Assembly (NCBI GenBank): GCA_937127435.1
Contig: CAKZLZ010000060.1
Coordinates: 1 to 64,000 of the forward strand
Length of the DNA stretch: 64,000 nt
Reading direction: 5' to 3'
Source of the DNA: an uncultured Verrucomicrobiota bacterium
Lineage (GTDB): Bacteria; Verrucomicrobiota; Kiritimatiellia; SS1-B-03-39; UBA6053
Part shown: in pieces, positions 43,425 through 49,424 of the stretch
Layout: the number at the start of each line of letters is the position of its first letter
Numbering within the stretch: the first letter of the stretch is position 1
Notes under the pieces: model-generated
The model's database searches: none
Told to the model about the DNA's origin: nothing
What the model saw: the letters and a program-made list of their open reading frames with translations, nothing else
Position numbers and translations under genes: made by a program

Positions 43425-45968
43425 ATGAAGAGCCAGAATTCTCGTATCGTATCCCGTATCGCCCTGTCGTTTAGTTGTATCCTTGGTTTCAGTACGTTGC
43501 CTGTTCAGGCCCAGATTGTTTTGGGCGGCCCCGGAAATGTTTCCAGTGGGACTGACAGTACCTCAGGCGGAAATATGAACACGGCCAGTGGAAATAGTAG
43601 TACGGCTTTAGGTGATACCAATACGGCGACAGCCGCGGATAGTACTGCGGTCGGATCCGGCAATAATGCAACCGGAGATCGTGCTACCGCAGTGGGAAAT
43701 GCGAACAACGCATCCAACACGAATGCACAGGCTTTTGGATATGGGAATCAAGCGACAGGAGAAAATTCACTGGCGACGGGTACACTGAATACGGCAAGTG
43801 GTACCAATAGTGTCGCTTCCGGACTCACCAACACTGCGGACAATAACAATTCAGTTGCAACCGGGGTGGCCAACCAATCGAATGGAGTGAGCTCGTTGGC
43901 TACAGGGACCGCCAACACTGCAAGTGGTAACTTTACCACCGCAACCGGATCGAATAATACCGCCTCGGGTGTAGATAGTACCGCGGTGGGAACGATGAAC
44001 AACGCTTCCGGGGTCAGTAGTTTGGCCGTGGGGGATACCAACGTGGCCGCTGGCATCAACAGTTCGGCAGTAGGTGCCGGTAATACGGCCAACGGGATTA
44101 ACAGCACGGCTTCGGGCAGTTTGAACACAGCCAATGGTGAAGGCAGTACCGCATCCGGTTACGGCAACCAAACCCAGAACGATAATGCCACCGCAGTCGG
44201 ATCCATCAATGCCGCGGTGGGAATTAGAAGTGCCGCCACTGGTTTTAATAATGTGGCGGTTGCGGCTGACAGTACCGCCAGCGGTTCAAACAATACGGCT
44301 TCGGGTGTAGATAGCACGGCGGTGGGAACAATGAACAACGCTTCCGGGGTCAGTAGTTTGGCCGTGGGGGATACCAATACTGCCGCCGGCATCAACAGCT
44401 CGGCGTTGGGTGCCGGTAATACGGCCAACGGGATTAATAGCACCGCTTCAGGAAGTGCAAACACGGCCAACGGGGAAGGCGGCACCGCATCCGGTTACGG
44501 CAACCAAACCCAGAACGATTATGCCACCGCAGTCGGATCCATCAATGCCGCAGTGGGAGTAAGAAGTACCGCTGCCGGATTTAACAATGTGGCAGTTGCG
44601 GATGACAGTACCGCCAGCGGTTCAAACAATTCGGCTTCGGGTGTCGACAGTACTGCCGTGGGCTCTGGCAATCAGGCCTCGGCCGAGCGTGCTACCTCCA
44701 CCGGTTACAGCAACGAGGCGTCGGGCGCGGACAGTTTGGCTGATGGCTCGGGCAACACGGCCGGAGGGTTTCGTTCCACTGCCACCGGCGCTGGAAATTC
44801 AGCCTCAGGGAATGATGCGACTGCGAGCGGATCTGGCAATCAGGCCTCGGCCGAGCGTACCACCTCCACCGGTTACAGCAACGTGGCGTCTGGCGCGGAC
44901 AGTTTGGCTGCTGGCTCGGGCAACACGGCCGGCGGGGTTCGTTCCACTGCCACCGGCTCCGGAAATTCAGCCTCAGGATTAGACGGATCAGCTGTGGGGA
45001 GTTCAAACAGTGTTTCGGGTGACCTTTCCAGTGCCTTTGGTTATTCCAATCAAGTTTCCGGTTTGCGAAGCTTGGCTTCGGGTGCGAGTAACAGTGCTTC
45101 GGGAACGGAGTCTACGGCTGTGGGAAGCACAAACAATGCCGCCGGAGTGGGGGCGACCTCTTTAGGTCGCAACAATCAGGCGCTTGGTGATGAAAGTTTA
45201 GCCATTGGTTCCGGGAATCTGGCGAATGGGGAAGCTTCCATCGCCATTGGCCGGAACACGCAGGCCGCCTCCTCCGGGTCGGTGGCGATTGGAGACGGCG
45301 CGGTCGCCCTTTCATCGGTTGCAGTGGGCCCCGGGGCAAGAGCGACCGGATTGAATACCACGGCAGTGGGCGATTTTTCAACCGCCTCGGGTAGACAAGC
45401 CGCGGCCTTTGGTACAAATTCCCAAGCCGCCGGTTACCAAAGCACGGCATTGGGCTTTAATTCACGGGCCACCGCCAGCAACTCCGTTGCGTTGGGTGCA
45501 AATTCAGTAGCGGATGAACCTAACACGGTGAGTGTGGGTTCTTCCGGAAGTGAGCGTCGTATCACCAATGTTGCCAAAGGGATTCACAGTACGGATGCCG
45601 CCAATGTTCAGCAGGTGAAAGATCTCGAAAACAAGGTCTACCGGACTTTCGCCGAACAACGAGCATTGATTGATGCCAATACGGAGGCCATCCGGACGGT
45701 GGATGCCCGGGTATCGGATTTGAAAGAAAGTGCTTTTGCCGGTATAGCCGGGGCTGCGGCTATGGATGCGTTTATTTCCCCCTCTGAAGCTGGTAAAACC
45801 ACGGTGATGGCCGGTATGGGTTTTTATGAAGGGGAATCCGCCGTCGGGGTCACTGCGACCCACCGTATGAATGTAAATGAAAACACCGATCTCTACGTCA
45901 ACGGCGGGGTTTCCGTGACCTCAAATGAAACCGTTTTGAGCCGGGTCATGATCGGTACGGAATTTTAA
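43425..45968 (+). CDS. YadA-like trimeric autotransporter adhesin
   Basis: 847 residues: a signal peptide (~1-28, ending VQA), then about 50 head repeats of 14 residues on the pattern A-x-G-x-x-N-x-A-S-G (hep/Hag-type left-handed beta-roll). A neck/stalk with VGSSGSERRITNVAKGI (~710-730) and a coiled coil (VQQVKDLENKVYRTFAEQRAL) come next. Then a C-terminal YadA membrane anchor (~770-847, four strands ending in MIGTEF). It forms a homotrimer on the outer membrane for attachment. Internal 336 and 168 bp duplications show recent growth. It is followed only 4 bp later by an Omp85 gene. Confidence 0.92.
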   Translation: MKSQNSRIVSRIALSFSCILGFSTLPVQAQIVLGGPGNVSSGTDSTSGGNMNTASGNSSTALGDTNTATAADSTAVGSGNNATGDRATAVGNANNASNTNAQAFGYGNQATGENSLATGTLNTASGTNSVASGLTNTADNNNSVATGVANQSNGVSSLATGTANTASGNFTTATGSNNTASGVDSTAVGTMNNASGVSSLAVGDTNVAAGINSSAVGAGNTANGINSTASGSLNTANGEGSTASGYGNQTQNDNATAVGSINAAVGIRSAATGFNNVAVAADSTASGSNNTASGVDSTAVGTMNNASGVSSLAVGDTNTAAGINSSALGAGNTANGINSTASGSANTANGEGGTASGYGNQTQNDYATAVGSINAAVGVRSTAAGFNNVAVADDSTASGSNNSASGVDSTAVGSGNQASAERATSTGYSNEASGADSLADGSGNTAGGFRSTATGAGNSASGNDATASGSGNQASAERTTSTGYSNVASGADSLAAGSGNTAGGVRSTATGSGNSASGLDGSAVGSSNSVSGDLSSAFGYSNQVSGLRSLASGASNSASGTESTAVGSTNNAAGVGATSLGRNNQALGDESLAIGSGNLANGEASIAIGRNTQAASSGSVAIGDGAVALSSVAVGPGARATGLNTTAVGDFSTASGRQAAAFGTNSQAAGYQSTALGFNSRATASNSVALGANSVADEPNTVSVGSSGSERRITNVAKGIHSTDAANVQQVKDLENKVYRTFAEQRALIDANTEAIRTVDARVSDLKESAFAGIAGAAAMDAFISPSEAGKTTVMAGMGFYEGESAVGVTATHRMNVNENTDLYVNGGVSVTSNETVLSRVMIGTEF
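43971..44642 (+). repeat. Two tandem 336 bp units within the adhesin gene
   Basis: The start GTAGATAG-like sequence occurs at 43971 and 44307, and a third related start (GTCGACAG) at 44643, so two 336 bp units (112 residues, eight 14-residue repeats) lie in tandem. They share long identical stretches such as CTTCCGGGGTCAGTAGTTTG. The third start marks the beginning of a divergent unit. Confidence 0.85.
44667..45002 (+). repeat. Two tandem 168 bp units within the adhesin gene
   Basis: GGCAATCAGGCCTCGGCCGA begins at 44667 and again at 44835, 168 bp (56 residues, four 14-residue repeats) apart. Identity is high with few substitutions, so this duplication is younger than most of the repeat region. 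Confidence 0.85.
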
Positions 45969-45972
45969 ATAG

Positions 45973-48096
45973 ATGAAGGGGATGGGACGCAGAGTCAGGA
46001 TCTTTTATTTTTTACTGGCCTGTGTTTTAACCGGTCCGGTCTTTTGTGAATCACTGGCTCCGCTGACACCCTTGGCACCGCAGGCGTCTTTGGCCGAATT
46101 GCGCTTTCAGAATCAGCTTTCGATTTCTGAAGAGAAAGCGAAAGATGTCATGGCGCTTCAACTGGGGGAGCCTTTTGACCCTGAAAAAATTCAGGCAGCT
46201 GCGGACAGGTTACACCAATACTACCGGAATTTATACCATCCCATGGCCCAGGTGAAATGGAAAGCTTTGCCATTTAAATCCCATGATCAGTTTTTGTTAC
46301 TCGTTGAGGTGGTTGAGGGGCCCAAAGGCCGTCTGCAGGAGCTTCGATTCACGGGGAACGTGCAGGTGACTTCAGAGACCCTGCGCACAGTGGTGAAGAC
46401 GGTTCCCCGGGACGGGGCCTGGCATCGTCTGATCCGCAAGGATCGCTTGAACCTTGATGCGCTGGAGATGGATCGTCAGGCCTTGCGGGAATTTTATCAT
46501 CATCTGGGATACCCGGATATAGAAATCGGGATTCCGGTGTTGGAGAAACCTGCAGATTACCAGGGCTTTCTATTGACCTGGCCCATTCTCAAGGAGGGCA
46601 AGGCATACCGGATTGGTACCATCAGTTTTGAGGCTGGAAAATTACCGGAGGCTTCCGTTTTAGAAGAATTAATTCCTCTGGAACCCGGGGACCCCTACAA
46701 TTCAAGAGCGCTTCGGAACATCCAGGTGAATTTTCAAAAATATCTTTTAGGGGAAGGCTACGCTTTTGCCACAGTGGATTTAATGCTGAGCCCCCGGGAA
46801 GATATGGGGTACATGGATATTACGTTTCAGGTGGATATGGGCCGGAAACCTCTCCTGAGAAAAATCAAGCTTCATGGCAATTCGCAAACATCGGATCATG
46901 TAATTCTCCGCGAAATAGAAATTCAGCCCGGCGAAGTTTTTGCGGGAGACTCCCTCTACGACACCAAAACCCGTATCGCACAGTTGCCCATGTTTTCACA
47001 GGTGGAGTTAACCTACGATGGCGATCTGCAATCGGAGTTCTTTGATTTAAATGTTCGGGTTCAGGAACGGAAAACCGGACGATTCGAAGTCGGGGTGGCA
47101 TATGGAGAAACGGAGGAGGTGGCCTTTCTGGTTAATTTATTGGAGTCAAACCTTTCATTAAAGCCCCCCTTTAAAGGAGACGCCCTGTCCGGTCGGTTGA
47201 GTGCGAGTATTGCTTCCAGTTTATTTCGGGTGGAAGGCGCAATTGACAATCCGCGGATGGGAGAAAGTCACTGGGGTCTGAACAATCGCGTCTCTTATGA
47301 AGACAATCAAATCATCAGCGATTTTTATGATCAACGCAGTTTACATGCGCAAAGTATTTTGCACTACCCGCTCTCCGCACATCAGCTTCTGGGAGTAGGA
47401 CTTTCGGGCACGTTCTATGACATTTACGGGATGGACCCGCTTCTGGCTGAAAGTCTATCCCCCGAAGATCAGGATGTCCGACTTACCTCGGTCCTTTCAT
47501 ACTGGGATTGGAACCGGACAGACCACCTTCTCCGTCCCACTTCGGGGGGAAGGCTCCGTGCCGGAGTGGAGTTGGGTACATCGGCTTTGGGTGGAAATGT
47601 GGATATGGTCCGTACCCGGCTAGATGCGGCCTATTACCTTCCGACATTTTTTGAGCAGGTGCTCAGTCTCGAATGCGGGGTTGAAAACTTGACCGGTTTC
47701 AGTTCCACAGAACGGATTCCCCTGCCGCTACGAATCTATCTGGGGGGACAACGCAATCTGCGCGGTTTTGATTACCGTTCGGTTTCTCCTGCAGGTCCGG
47801 AAGGCAATCTGGTGGGCGGGGAAGGGGCCTGGTGGGCAACCCTCGAATACCGAATCCCCACCTGGTATTGGCTGGATCTTGCGGTTTTCCTGGATGTTGG
47901 GGATGTGAGCTTGGACGCATATACCTTTAGTGGAGAAGGGGCGGTAAGCGATGCCGGGCTGGGGTTGATTGTCCGGGCGGATAACTTTCCTGTTCGTTTT
48001 GACATTGCCTCCCCATTGAATACATATGATTCTGACACTGTGAACACAACCGGTGATCTCCGTCTCTCGTTTTCTGCCGGATATCGTTTTTATTGA
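45973..48096 (+). CDS. Omp85/BamA-family outer membrane protein with POTRA domains
   Basis: 707 residues: a signal peptide (~1-22), an N-terminal set of about four or five POTRA domains (~40-390, recognisable by repeats of the type KIKLHGNSQTSDHVILREIE), and a C-terminal 16-strand barrel with the Omp85 signature RGFDYRSVSPAGPEGNLVGG and a terminal aromatic strand (LSFSAGYRFY). It is shorter and differently arranged than typical BamA. The location 4 bp after the adhesin gene suggests a dedicated assembly or export factor for it, or a second BamA/TamA paralog. Confidence 0.88.
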   Translation: MKGMGRRVRIFYFLLACVLTGPVFCESLAPLTPLAPQASLAELRFQNQLSISEEKAKDVMALQLGEPFDPEKIQAAADRLHQYYRNLYHPMAQVKWKALPFKSHDQFLLLVEVVEGPKGRLQELRFTGNVQVTSETLRTVVKTVPRDGAWHRLIRKDRLNLDALEMDRQALREFYHHLGYPDIEIGIPVLEKPADYQGFLLTWPILKEGKAYRIGTISFEAGKLPEASVLEELIPLEPGDPYNSRALRNIQVNFQKYLLGEGYAFATVDLMLSPREDMGYMDITFQVDMGRKPLLRKIKLHGNSQTSDHVILREIEIQPGEVFAGDSLYDTKTRIAQLPMFSQVELTYDGDLQSEFFDLNVRVQERKTGRFEVGVAYGETEEVAFLVNLLESNLSLKPPFKGDALSGRLSASIASSLFRVEGAIDNPRMGESHWGLNNRVSYEDNQIISDFYDQRSLHAQSILHYPLSAHQLLGVGLSGTFYDIYGMDPLLAESLSPEDQDVRLTSVLSYWDWNRTDHLLRPTSGGRLRAGVELGTSALGGNVDMVRTRLDAAYYLPTFFEQVLSLECGVENLTGFSSTERIPLPLRIYLGGQRNLRGFDYRSVSPAGPEGNLVGGEGAWWATLEYRIPTWYWLDLAVFLDVGDVSLDAYTFSGEGAVSDAGLGLIVRADNFPVRFDIASPLNTYDSDTVNTTGDLRLSFSAGYRFY

Positions 48097-48107
48097 GGAC
48101 CAAAATT

Positions 48108-49424
48108 TTGAAAATGACTTTTTTGATATGGGTTGTGGCCGGGTTCCTGATCGGTTCGGGATGTGCAAGCCACCCCTCCGGAGGGAAAGCAGATGAGGAC
48201 AGCAAAATCTTCACGCTCGATTTGACCTCGGATCCCCCGGTGGCCAAACTCCGCACCGCACCGGATGCCGAGGTTTGGGACCGGATTAAAACGCCCGGGC
48301 AGTTAACCTTCCGGCTTACCCGGAAAACCAGTGGTGATTTCCTGGGAAAACTGGGGCTGGATTCGTGGCAGCCTGAAACCGAACTTTTTCAACCCTGGGC
48401 GGTCACTGAAACCAAGGATTCTTTTATCTTTGATACGCAGGAACTTTTGATGGTGAAAGAGGGATATGAAGCCCAACCTTTTTCCTATCAGTGGGAGGTG
48501 CCCAAAGACTTTCAAAACCGGGATGCCGAGGGAAAGAAAACCGGTGAAATCTCTTACCACCGTAAGCTGACGGTGGTTTTTCAAAACCCCATCCGACCGC
48601 ATTTTACCCGTGAAATTCAGCTTCGTTCCCGTTCAGGTCCCATCAGTTTATATGCCGTGAATGCAAACGGGCAACCCGGCGAAAAAATCGCGGTTACCCC
48701 TTTGTCCTCCACGTTGAGCGTTGCGGCAGTGCGTTCCCCTGATGGGGAAATTAAGGATTGGAAAGTCTGGGACAACGAGGGGTTAAATTTGTGGACGATT
48801 TCAAAAGACGGGCTGGTAATGCTAAATGCCTTTTTGGTTTGCGAAAATTATAAGCCGGAAAAAATCACAAACTATGTCATGTTTAAATTGGCGTTGGAAC
48901 AAAAAAGCTCGATTCAGGTCACCCTGCAAATGACCACTCCGACGGTACCTGAAACTGATTTTATTTTAGAACTGGATACCCTTCCCAGCGGTGCGGGTGT
49001 TTATGTGTTGAATGACGACAATACTTTGGGACAAAAACTGGGGGACCTTCCCGCGCAATTAAAAGTCGGGTTGGCTCAACAGGTGGAGAGATTGCCCGGC
49101 GGTGTTTATCAGCACAAAGACTGGATGCTCTGGGACCCCACAGGACTCTTCAAGATCTGGTCGGATGCGCAAGGCAACGCACAGATTGTTTTAAGTTGCA
49201 CATTATTTCTGGAGGGCTTTTCCCCCGAGAATATTATTAAACCGGTGTTGGACCTGATCCCTGGAAAACCTTTTGTGCAAAAACGGGTATTAAATGTTCC
49301 GCTGTTAAAGCCCGAACAGGCGGCCGTCCGGGATAAAAATCGGCTTCAAGGCTTGGGTGTGAACCGGAAAATGGATGCGCAACCGACACCGAGACCCACG
49401 TTTATTTGGAAAGCGCCAGAGTAA
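48108..49424 (+). CDS. Lipoprotein with PEGA-like internal repeats
   Basis: 438 residues from the TTG at 48108, which lies 8 bp behind GAGGA. The ATG at 48114 is an alternative. A lipobox LIGSGC is at about residue 22. Two internal repeats are visible: DWKVWDNEGLNLWTISKDG with an ENYKPEKI tail (~220-265) and DWMLWDPTGLFKIWSDAQG with a GFSPENI tail (~345-385). A first, weaker PEGA-like unit (LTSDPPVAKLRTAPDAEVW) follows the lipobox. PEGA domains are surface beta domains. It follows the Omp85 gene directly, with no gap for a separate promoter. Confidence 0.72.
   Translation: MKMTFLIWVVAGFLIGSGCASHPSGGKADEDSKIFTLDLTSDPPVAKLRTAPDAEVWDRIKTPGQLTFRLTRKTSGDFLGKLGLDSWQPETELFQPWAVTETKDSFIFDTQELLMVKEGYEAQPFSYQWEVPKDFQNRDAEGKKTGEISYHRKLTVVFQNPIRPHFTREIQLRSRSGPISLYAVNANGQPGEKIAVTPLSSTLSVAAVRSPDGEIKDWKVWDNEGLNLWTISKDGLVMLNAFLVCENYKPEKITNYVMFKLALEQKSSIQVTLQMTTPTVPETDFILELDTLPSGAGVYVLNDDNTLGQKLGDLPAQLKVGLAQQVERLPGGVYQHKDWMLWDPTGLFKIWSDAQGNAQIVLSCTLFLEGFSPENIIKPVLDLIPGKPFVQKRVLNVPLLKPEQAAVRDKNRLQGLGVNRKMDAQPTPRPTFIWKAPE

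Follow-up and report, generated by a model that had tools for sequence, protein, structure and literature searches.

A trimeric autotransporter adhesin encoded beside a BamA-like Omp85: a candidate dedicated insertion module in Kiritimatiellia

In the accepted view, trimeric autotransporter adhesins (TAAs) rely on the general BAM machinery and insert as a trimeric protobarrel (PMC6604945), which counts against the need for a dedicated insertase. Does a TAA whose gene is followed almost immediately by a gene for an Omp85 protein nevertheless bring an insertase of its own? The question arises at a locus in the window (the whole 64,000-nucleotide stretch of DNA from an uncultured Kiritimatiellia bacterium that we analyzed), where three open reading frames lie on one strand:

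43425..45968, + strand: YadA-type trimeric autotransporter adhesin (type Vc), with signal peptide, YadA_head repeats, short stalk, 12-strand-type anchor and C-terminal Phe
45657..45965, + strand: C-terminal stalk/anchor part of the TAA, the probe for the class-wide search; last strand RVMIGTEF, without the Gly that unlinked TAAs have at -6
45973..48096, + strand: TAA-linked BamA-like Omp85, with signal peptide, 4 POTRA domains (residues ~39-365), 16-strand barrel (369-706) and loop-6 motif LRGF
48108..49424, + strand: LIP, a probable lipoprotein with three predicted beta-sandwich domains; TTG start at 48108 after the Shine-Dalgarno sequence TGAGGA

The locus and its three products

The three genes have an operon-like layout, with only 4 bp between the TAA and Omp85 genes. 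A UbiA-family gene and then a 284-bp gap precede the TAA gene on the 5' side, and a PIN-domain gene in convergent orientation lies on the 3' side, so that the three genes make up a self-contained unit.

The TAA is 847 aa long and has the features of a type Vc protein: YadA head repeats, a stalk, a YadA anchor and a C-terminal aromatic residue. Its head comprises 15 YadA_head stretches (PF05658, E 1e-63), and both YadA_stalk and YadA_anchor exceed the Pfam cut-off within the C-terminal 146 aa. Two near-identical 336-bp units occupy positions 43938-44662 of the head, within a stretch of near-identical tandem units of 336 bp and 168 bp (43938-44977). The orthologue in the sister genome G002 is an open frame of 3138 aa; this frame and the tandem units suggest that fibre length changes fast.

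In a profile scan, the 707-aa Omp85 gave a barrel match (E 2.7e-36) and four POTRA matches. The original prediction of a YadA-type TAA followed at this short distance by a multi-POTRA Omp85 is thus borne out by the ORF coordinates and by the YadA, Omp85 and POTRA profiles. The protein scored 314 bits against the BamA equivalog TIGR03303 (cut-off 297; the match begins at model position 71), and because it passes this cut-off, standard annotation would call it 'BamA'. Its predicted structure (AF2, pLDDT 83.6) has 16 strands and four POTRA domains rather than the five of a housekeeping BamA; the best structural matches of the model, near full length, were to E. coli BamA, with TamA next.

A separate housekeeping bamA was looked for and found at C71, where a gene for a 760-aa BamA has the OmpH/Skp gene directly after it; the window Omp85 is therefore neither the housekeeping BamA nor the only bamA of its genome. 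The resident BamA and the BamA of G002 share 84% identity; between the window Omp85 and the resident protein, identity is ~25%. Two further identities were ruled out: TamA by the four POTRA domains, by a tamA-tamB pair located at C34 of the same genome and by a TamA model score of 104 bits (cut-off 625), and TpsB (type Vb) by the four POTRA domains and the YadA anchor on the partner protein.

The third gene had been predicted to encode a PEGA-like lipoprotein. The ORF caller placed its start at 48093, in a 4-bp overlap with the Omp85 gene; the TTG at 48108, which lies behind the Shine-Dalgarno sequence and 11 bp past the Omp85 stop, is more likely. The N-terminal pattern IGSG-C (the hyphen precedes the lipobox Cys) presumably fits the PROSITE lipobox, and other homologues have GSG-C (G002), CTG-C and GSH-C; the Cys is invariant in all four, and the lipobox itself is not clean in every one. 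The lipoprotein part of the prediction thus stands as probable, on the strength of this pattern. The PEGA part fared less well: the PEGA profile (PF08308) gave no match in the window LIP, and two relatives scored 15.2 (the best relative) and 12.3 bits against a Pfam cut-off of 20.8. Beta structure dominates the predicted LIP model (mean pLDDT 79), which is read as three beta-sandwich domains, a fold that would be compatible with the PEGA-like name and lends it fold-level support at best. A structure search gave CnaB/prealbumin-like matches that were weak (Z under 5). LIP had no significant match in Pfam, NCBIfam, PADLOC or PDB sequences, and no SadB/YajI chain matched it in sequence or appeared among the structural matches listed.

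Linkage of TAA and Omp85 genes across the class

We searched 345 genomes of the class, most of them MAGs, with a profile of the TAA C-terminus and a profile of the Omp85. The first recovered 11 strong TAAs in 8 genomes. Ten of these have readable downstream sequence, and in all ten, which span three family codes, an Omp85 gene lies directly next on the same strand. The eleventh (G006:C126, L059:191-2493) is a second TAA that ends ~190 bp from a contig end, so that its downstream sequence is unreadable; it lies in two frames, split by a frameshift or an assembly error. From the opposite direction, the Omp85 profile found eight loci above 470 bits, and 8/8 were TAA-linked. Housekeeping BamAs scored at most 410 bits, and the linked Omp85s of G036 and G001 C36 scored inside the BamA range. 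Identities between linked Omp85s go down to 22-30%, and the flanking genes are unrelated between most loci.

The linked Omp85s vary in detail. Their loop-6 RGF motif is changed in three of ten (LKAF, LKGF and LRAF). The Omp85 at the second G002 locus (L045:7263-8852), which retains its TAA neighbour, has ~190 residues before the barrel compared with 340-402 in the others, and so would have fewer POTRA domains. Short remnants of the Omp85 C-terminus, with no TAA, occur at L047:7278-7529 (G003:C135) and L048:6545-6673 (G008:C93); these are probably decayed copies of the module. Beside the latter, L048:3697-6266 contains repeated translated motifs (RLESVHS, CELIPISREKHP) that resemble CRISPR repeat arrays.

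The triplet order was looked for outside the window and recurs in three other Kiritimatiellia genomes of two families. LIP was found in four genomes only (G000, G002, G378 and G581; family codes f1 and f9), always as the third gene of the triplet, and is absent from six of the ten linked loci. It is confined to one branch of linked Omp85s; the four LIP-bearing loci form this branch (support 99/96), which makes it probable that LIP was acquired a single time and then passed on together with the TAA-Omp85 pair. The proposed three-gene module is therefore upheld: the TAA-Omp85 pair is its conserved core, and the third member is limited to a subset. A scan of named genomes, based on a profile from four linked Omp85s and on exact short peptides, so that relatives beyond the group may escape it, recovered the closed genome CP120722.1 (Kiritimatiellota bacterium B12222, our G002) and several MAGs, all Kiritimatiellota.

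At four of the ten loci (G002a, G378, G581 and G036), the TAA stop is followed after 20-60 nt by a strong hairpin of terminator-like form, partly within the start of the Omp85 gene; none follows the TAA stop in the window. Such a hairpin could hold Omp85 below TAA levels. The sites are:

L041, 8462-8520 region: hairpin
L061, 2985-3050: hairpin
L071, 900-965: hairpin
L062, junction (minus strand): hairpin

The best Omp85 tree places the linked Omp85s to one side of the 23 housekeeping BamAs included, as do 93% of the bootstrap replicates. A single clade of all ten had moderate support (84/63; 69/48 with TamA counted), and G036 and G001 C36 sit on long branches. A mirror-tree test over the linked loci correlated TAA anchor distances with Omp85 distances (0.62, Mantel p 0.0013); after removal of two close pairs the correlation was 0.37 (p 0.15). 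Co-evolution of the anchor with the Omp85 is thus weak.

YadA anchors are rare in a sample of the phylum (18 of 387 genomes). Candidate carriers G197, G271, G343 and G095 were dropped at 20.8-21.2 bits, below the cut-off, and G361, which had the best anchor score (59 bits), was dropped as possible contamination because its anchor lies on a short contig with proteobacteria-like genes. For six TAAs from other Verrucomicrobiota classes, no Omp85 was present in the 10-19 kb of surrounding DNA, which indicates that TAAs as such need no Omp85 neighbour. The last strand also distinguishes the two sets: Gly at position -6 occurs in 0/11 linked and 6/6 unlinked TAAs, and the linked proteins end in patterns such as RAMVGFEF. 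This divergent strand may point to an altered insertion signal; phylogeny by itself could produce it as well. Beyond the phylum, neither of two plasmid-borne extra bamA copies (in Caballeronia and Rahnella) has a TAA beside it, and an E. coli match considered as a precedent for plasmid bamA was ruled out as the normal bamA-skp-lpxD locus.

A proposed dedicated insertase and its alternatives

Together, these results make it likely that one operon encodes a surface adhesin and its own dedicated Omp85 insertase, with LIP as an optional accessory. After export of the TAA by Sec, the POTRA domains of the BamA-like Omp85 encoded next to it would take up its C-terminal strands, and the trimeric 12-strand barrel would be inserted via the lateral gate of that protein; export of the passenger would follow by autotransport. 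The linked Omp85 would act alongside the housekeeping BAM and TAM, which would serve the remaining proteins. LIP, where present, may be membrane-tethered and could hold or align the unfolded trimer or dock on the POTRA domains, by analogy with SadB and TpgA. Client specificity and insertase activity, as well as the role and location of LIP, are what we infer; linkage, phylogeny and knowledge of the families lend support to the dedicated export module first proposed for this locus.

A more radical form of this idea strikes us as doubtful. The TAA would not be insertable by the housekeeping BAM and would depend wholly on its private Omp85 (and LIP where present), which would constitute an orthogonal, one-client BAM that reads the altered C-terminal strand without Gly at -6.

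It is also conceivable, if rather unlikely, that the Omp85 serves as a second BamA of general use, which boosts capacity for many outer membrane proteins, and that the operon couples expression without any client specificity. The TIGR03303 score above cut-off and the BamA-like fold would suit such a role, and Heinz and Lithgow (PMC4104836) offer regulation and client specialization alike as explanations of BamA paralogues. However, all eight clearly assigned Omp85s in the class search adjoin a TAA, and the linked proteins are an old group, far from the resident BamA in sequence (25% identity, compared with 84% between the resident bamA and that of G002). A general booster need not retain one neighbour across such divergence.

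Type Vb translocators have two POTRA domains. We consider it very improbable that the Omp85 is a passenger translocase of this kind, as in two-partner secretion, and that the TAA barrel is an anchor only. A secreted adhesin and an Omp85 in one operon is indeed the type Vb layout (PMC6604945), but the TAA retains a complete YadA anchor, and the Omp85 has four POTRA domains and matches the BamA model near full length, with TamA next. Least credible of all is a purely accidental neighbourhood, or one carried along on a single mobile block, with no functional link: the patchy spread (8/345 class genomes) would fit it, yet the pairing holds for 10/10 TAAs that could be assessed. These come from three family codes, their Omp85 identities go as low as 22-30%, and the flanking genes are unrelated at most loci.

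Relation to known systems

BamA is essential and hence hard to study. A dedicated insertase of the kind favoured here, a natural and non-essential BamA serving one TAA, would uncouple the insertion question from cell viability. How BAM inserts a barrel made of three chains is an open question (PMC6604945). Such modules would be hidden in annotation, since the linked Omp85 scores as BamA in the NCBI model. Our search of open-access papers turned up no account of an Omp85 linked to a TAA. The only gene-linked TAA helpers that it brought up are SadB and TpgA, to which IalB, beside a Brucella TAA, can be added as an uncertain case (PMC7688925); none is an Omp85.

The SadB-SadA pair of enterobacteria resembles the present locus in that a TAA and a lipoprotein export factor share one operon (PMC3953254). 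SadB, a trimeric inner-membrane lipoprotein of small size that carries a MATH-like domain, is encoded upstream (PMC3953254), whereas LIP is encoded downstream, is predicted to have three beta-sandwich domains and has no detected similarity to SadB, and an Omp85 gene stands between LIP and the adhesin. In the AtaA-TpgA system of Acinetobacter Tol 5, a co-transcribed helper likewise raises the surface display of one TAA, but TpgA is a periplasmic peptidoglycan-binding protein and not an Omp85 (PMC8151025).

Among Omp85 proteins, TamA/TamB offers a parallel as an accessory system proposed for subsets of outer membrane proteins, including autotransporters (PMC4104836); TamA differs in having three POTRA domains and a TamB partner, and in the genome of the window TamA/TamB is encoded at another locus (C34). 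Heinz and Lithgow (2014, PMC4104836) suggest that BamA paralogues may specialize for such subsets; in the portion considered here, none is tied to a client gene. Type Vb systems share the combination of an adhesin and an Omp85 in one operon, but the window adhesin brings a trimeric barrel of its own, and its Omp85 is of the BamA type. Finally, the linked Omp85 shares with housekeeping BamA its POTRA repeats, 16-strand barrel and TIGR03303 score above cut-off, and differs from it in having four rather than five POTRA domains, a separate locus, a separate branch in the tree and a linked TAA.
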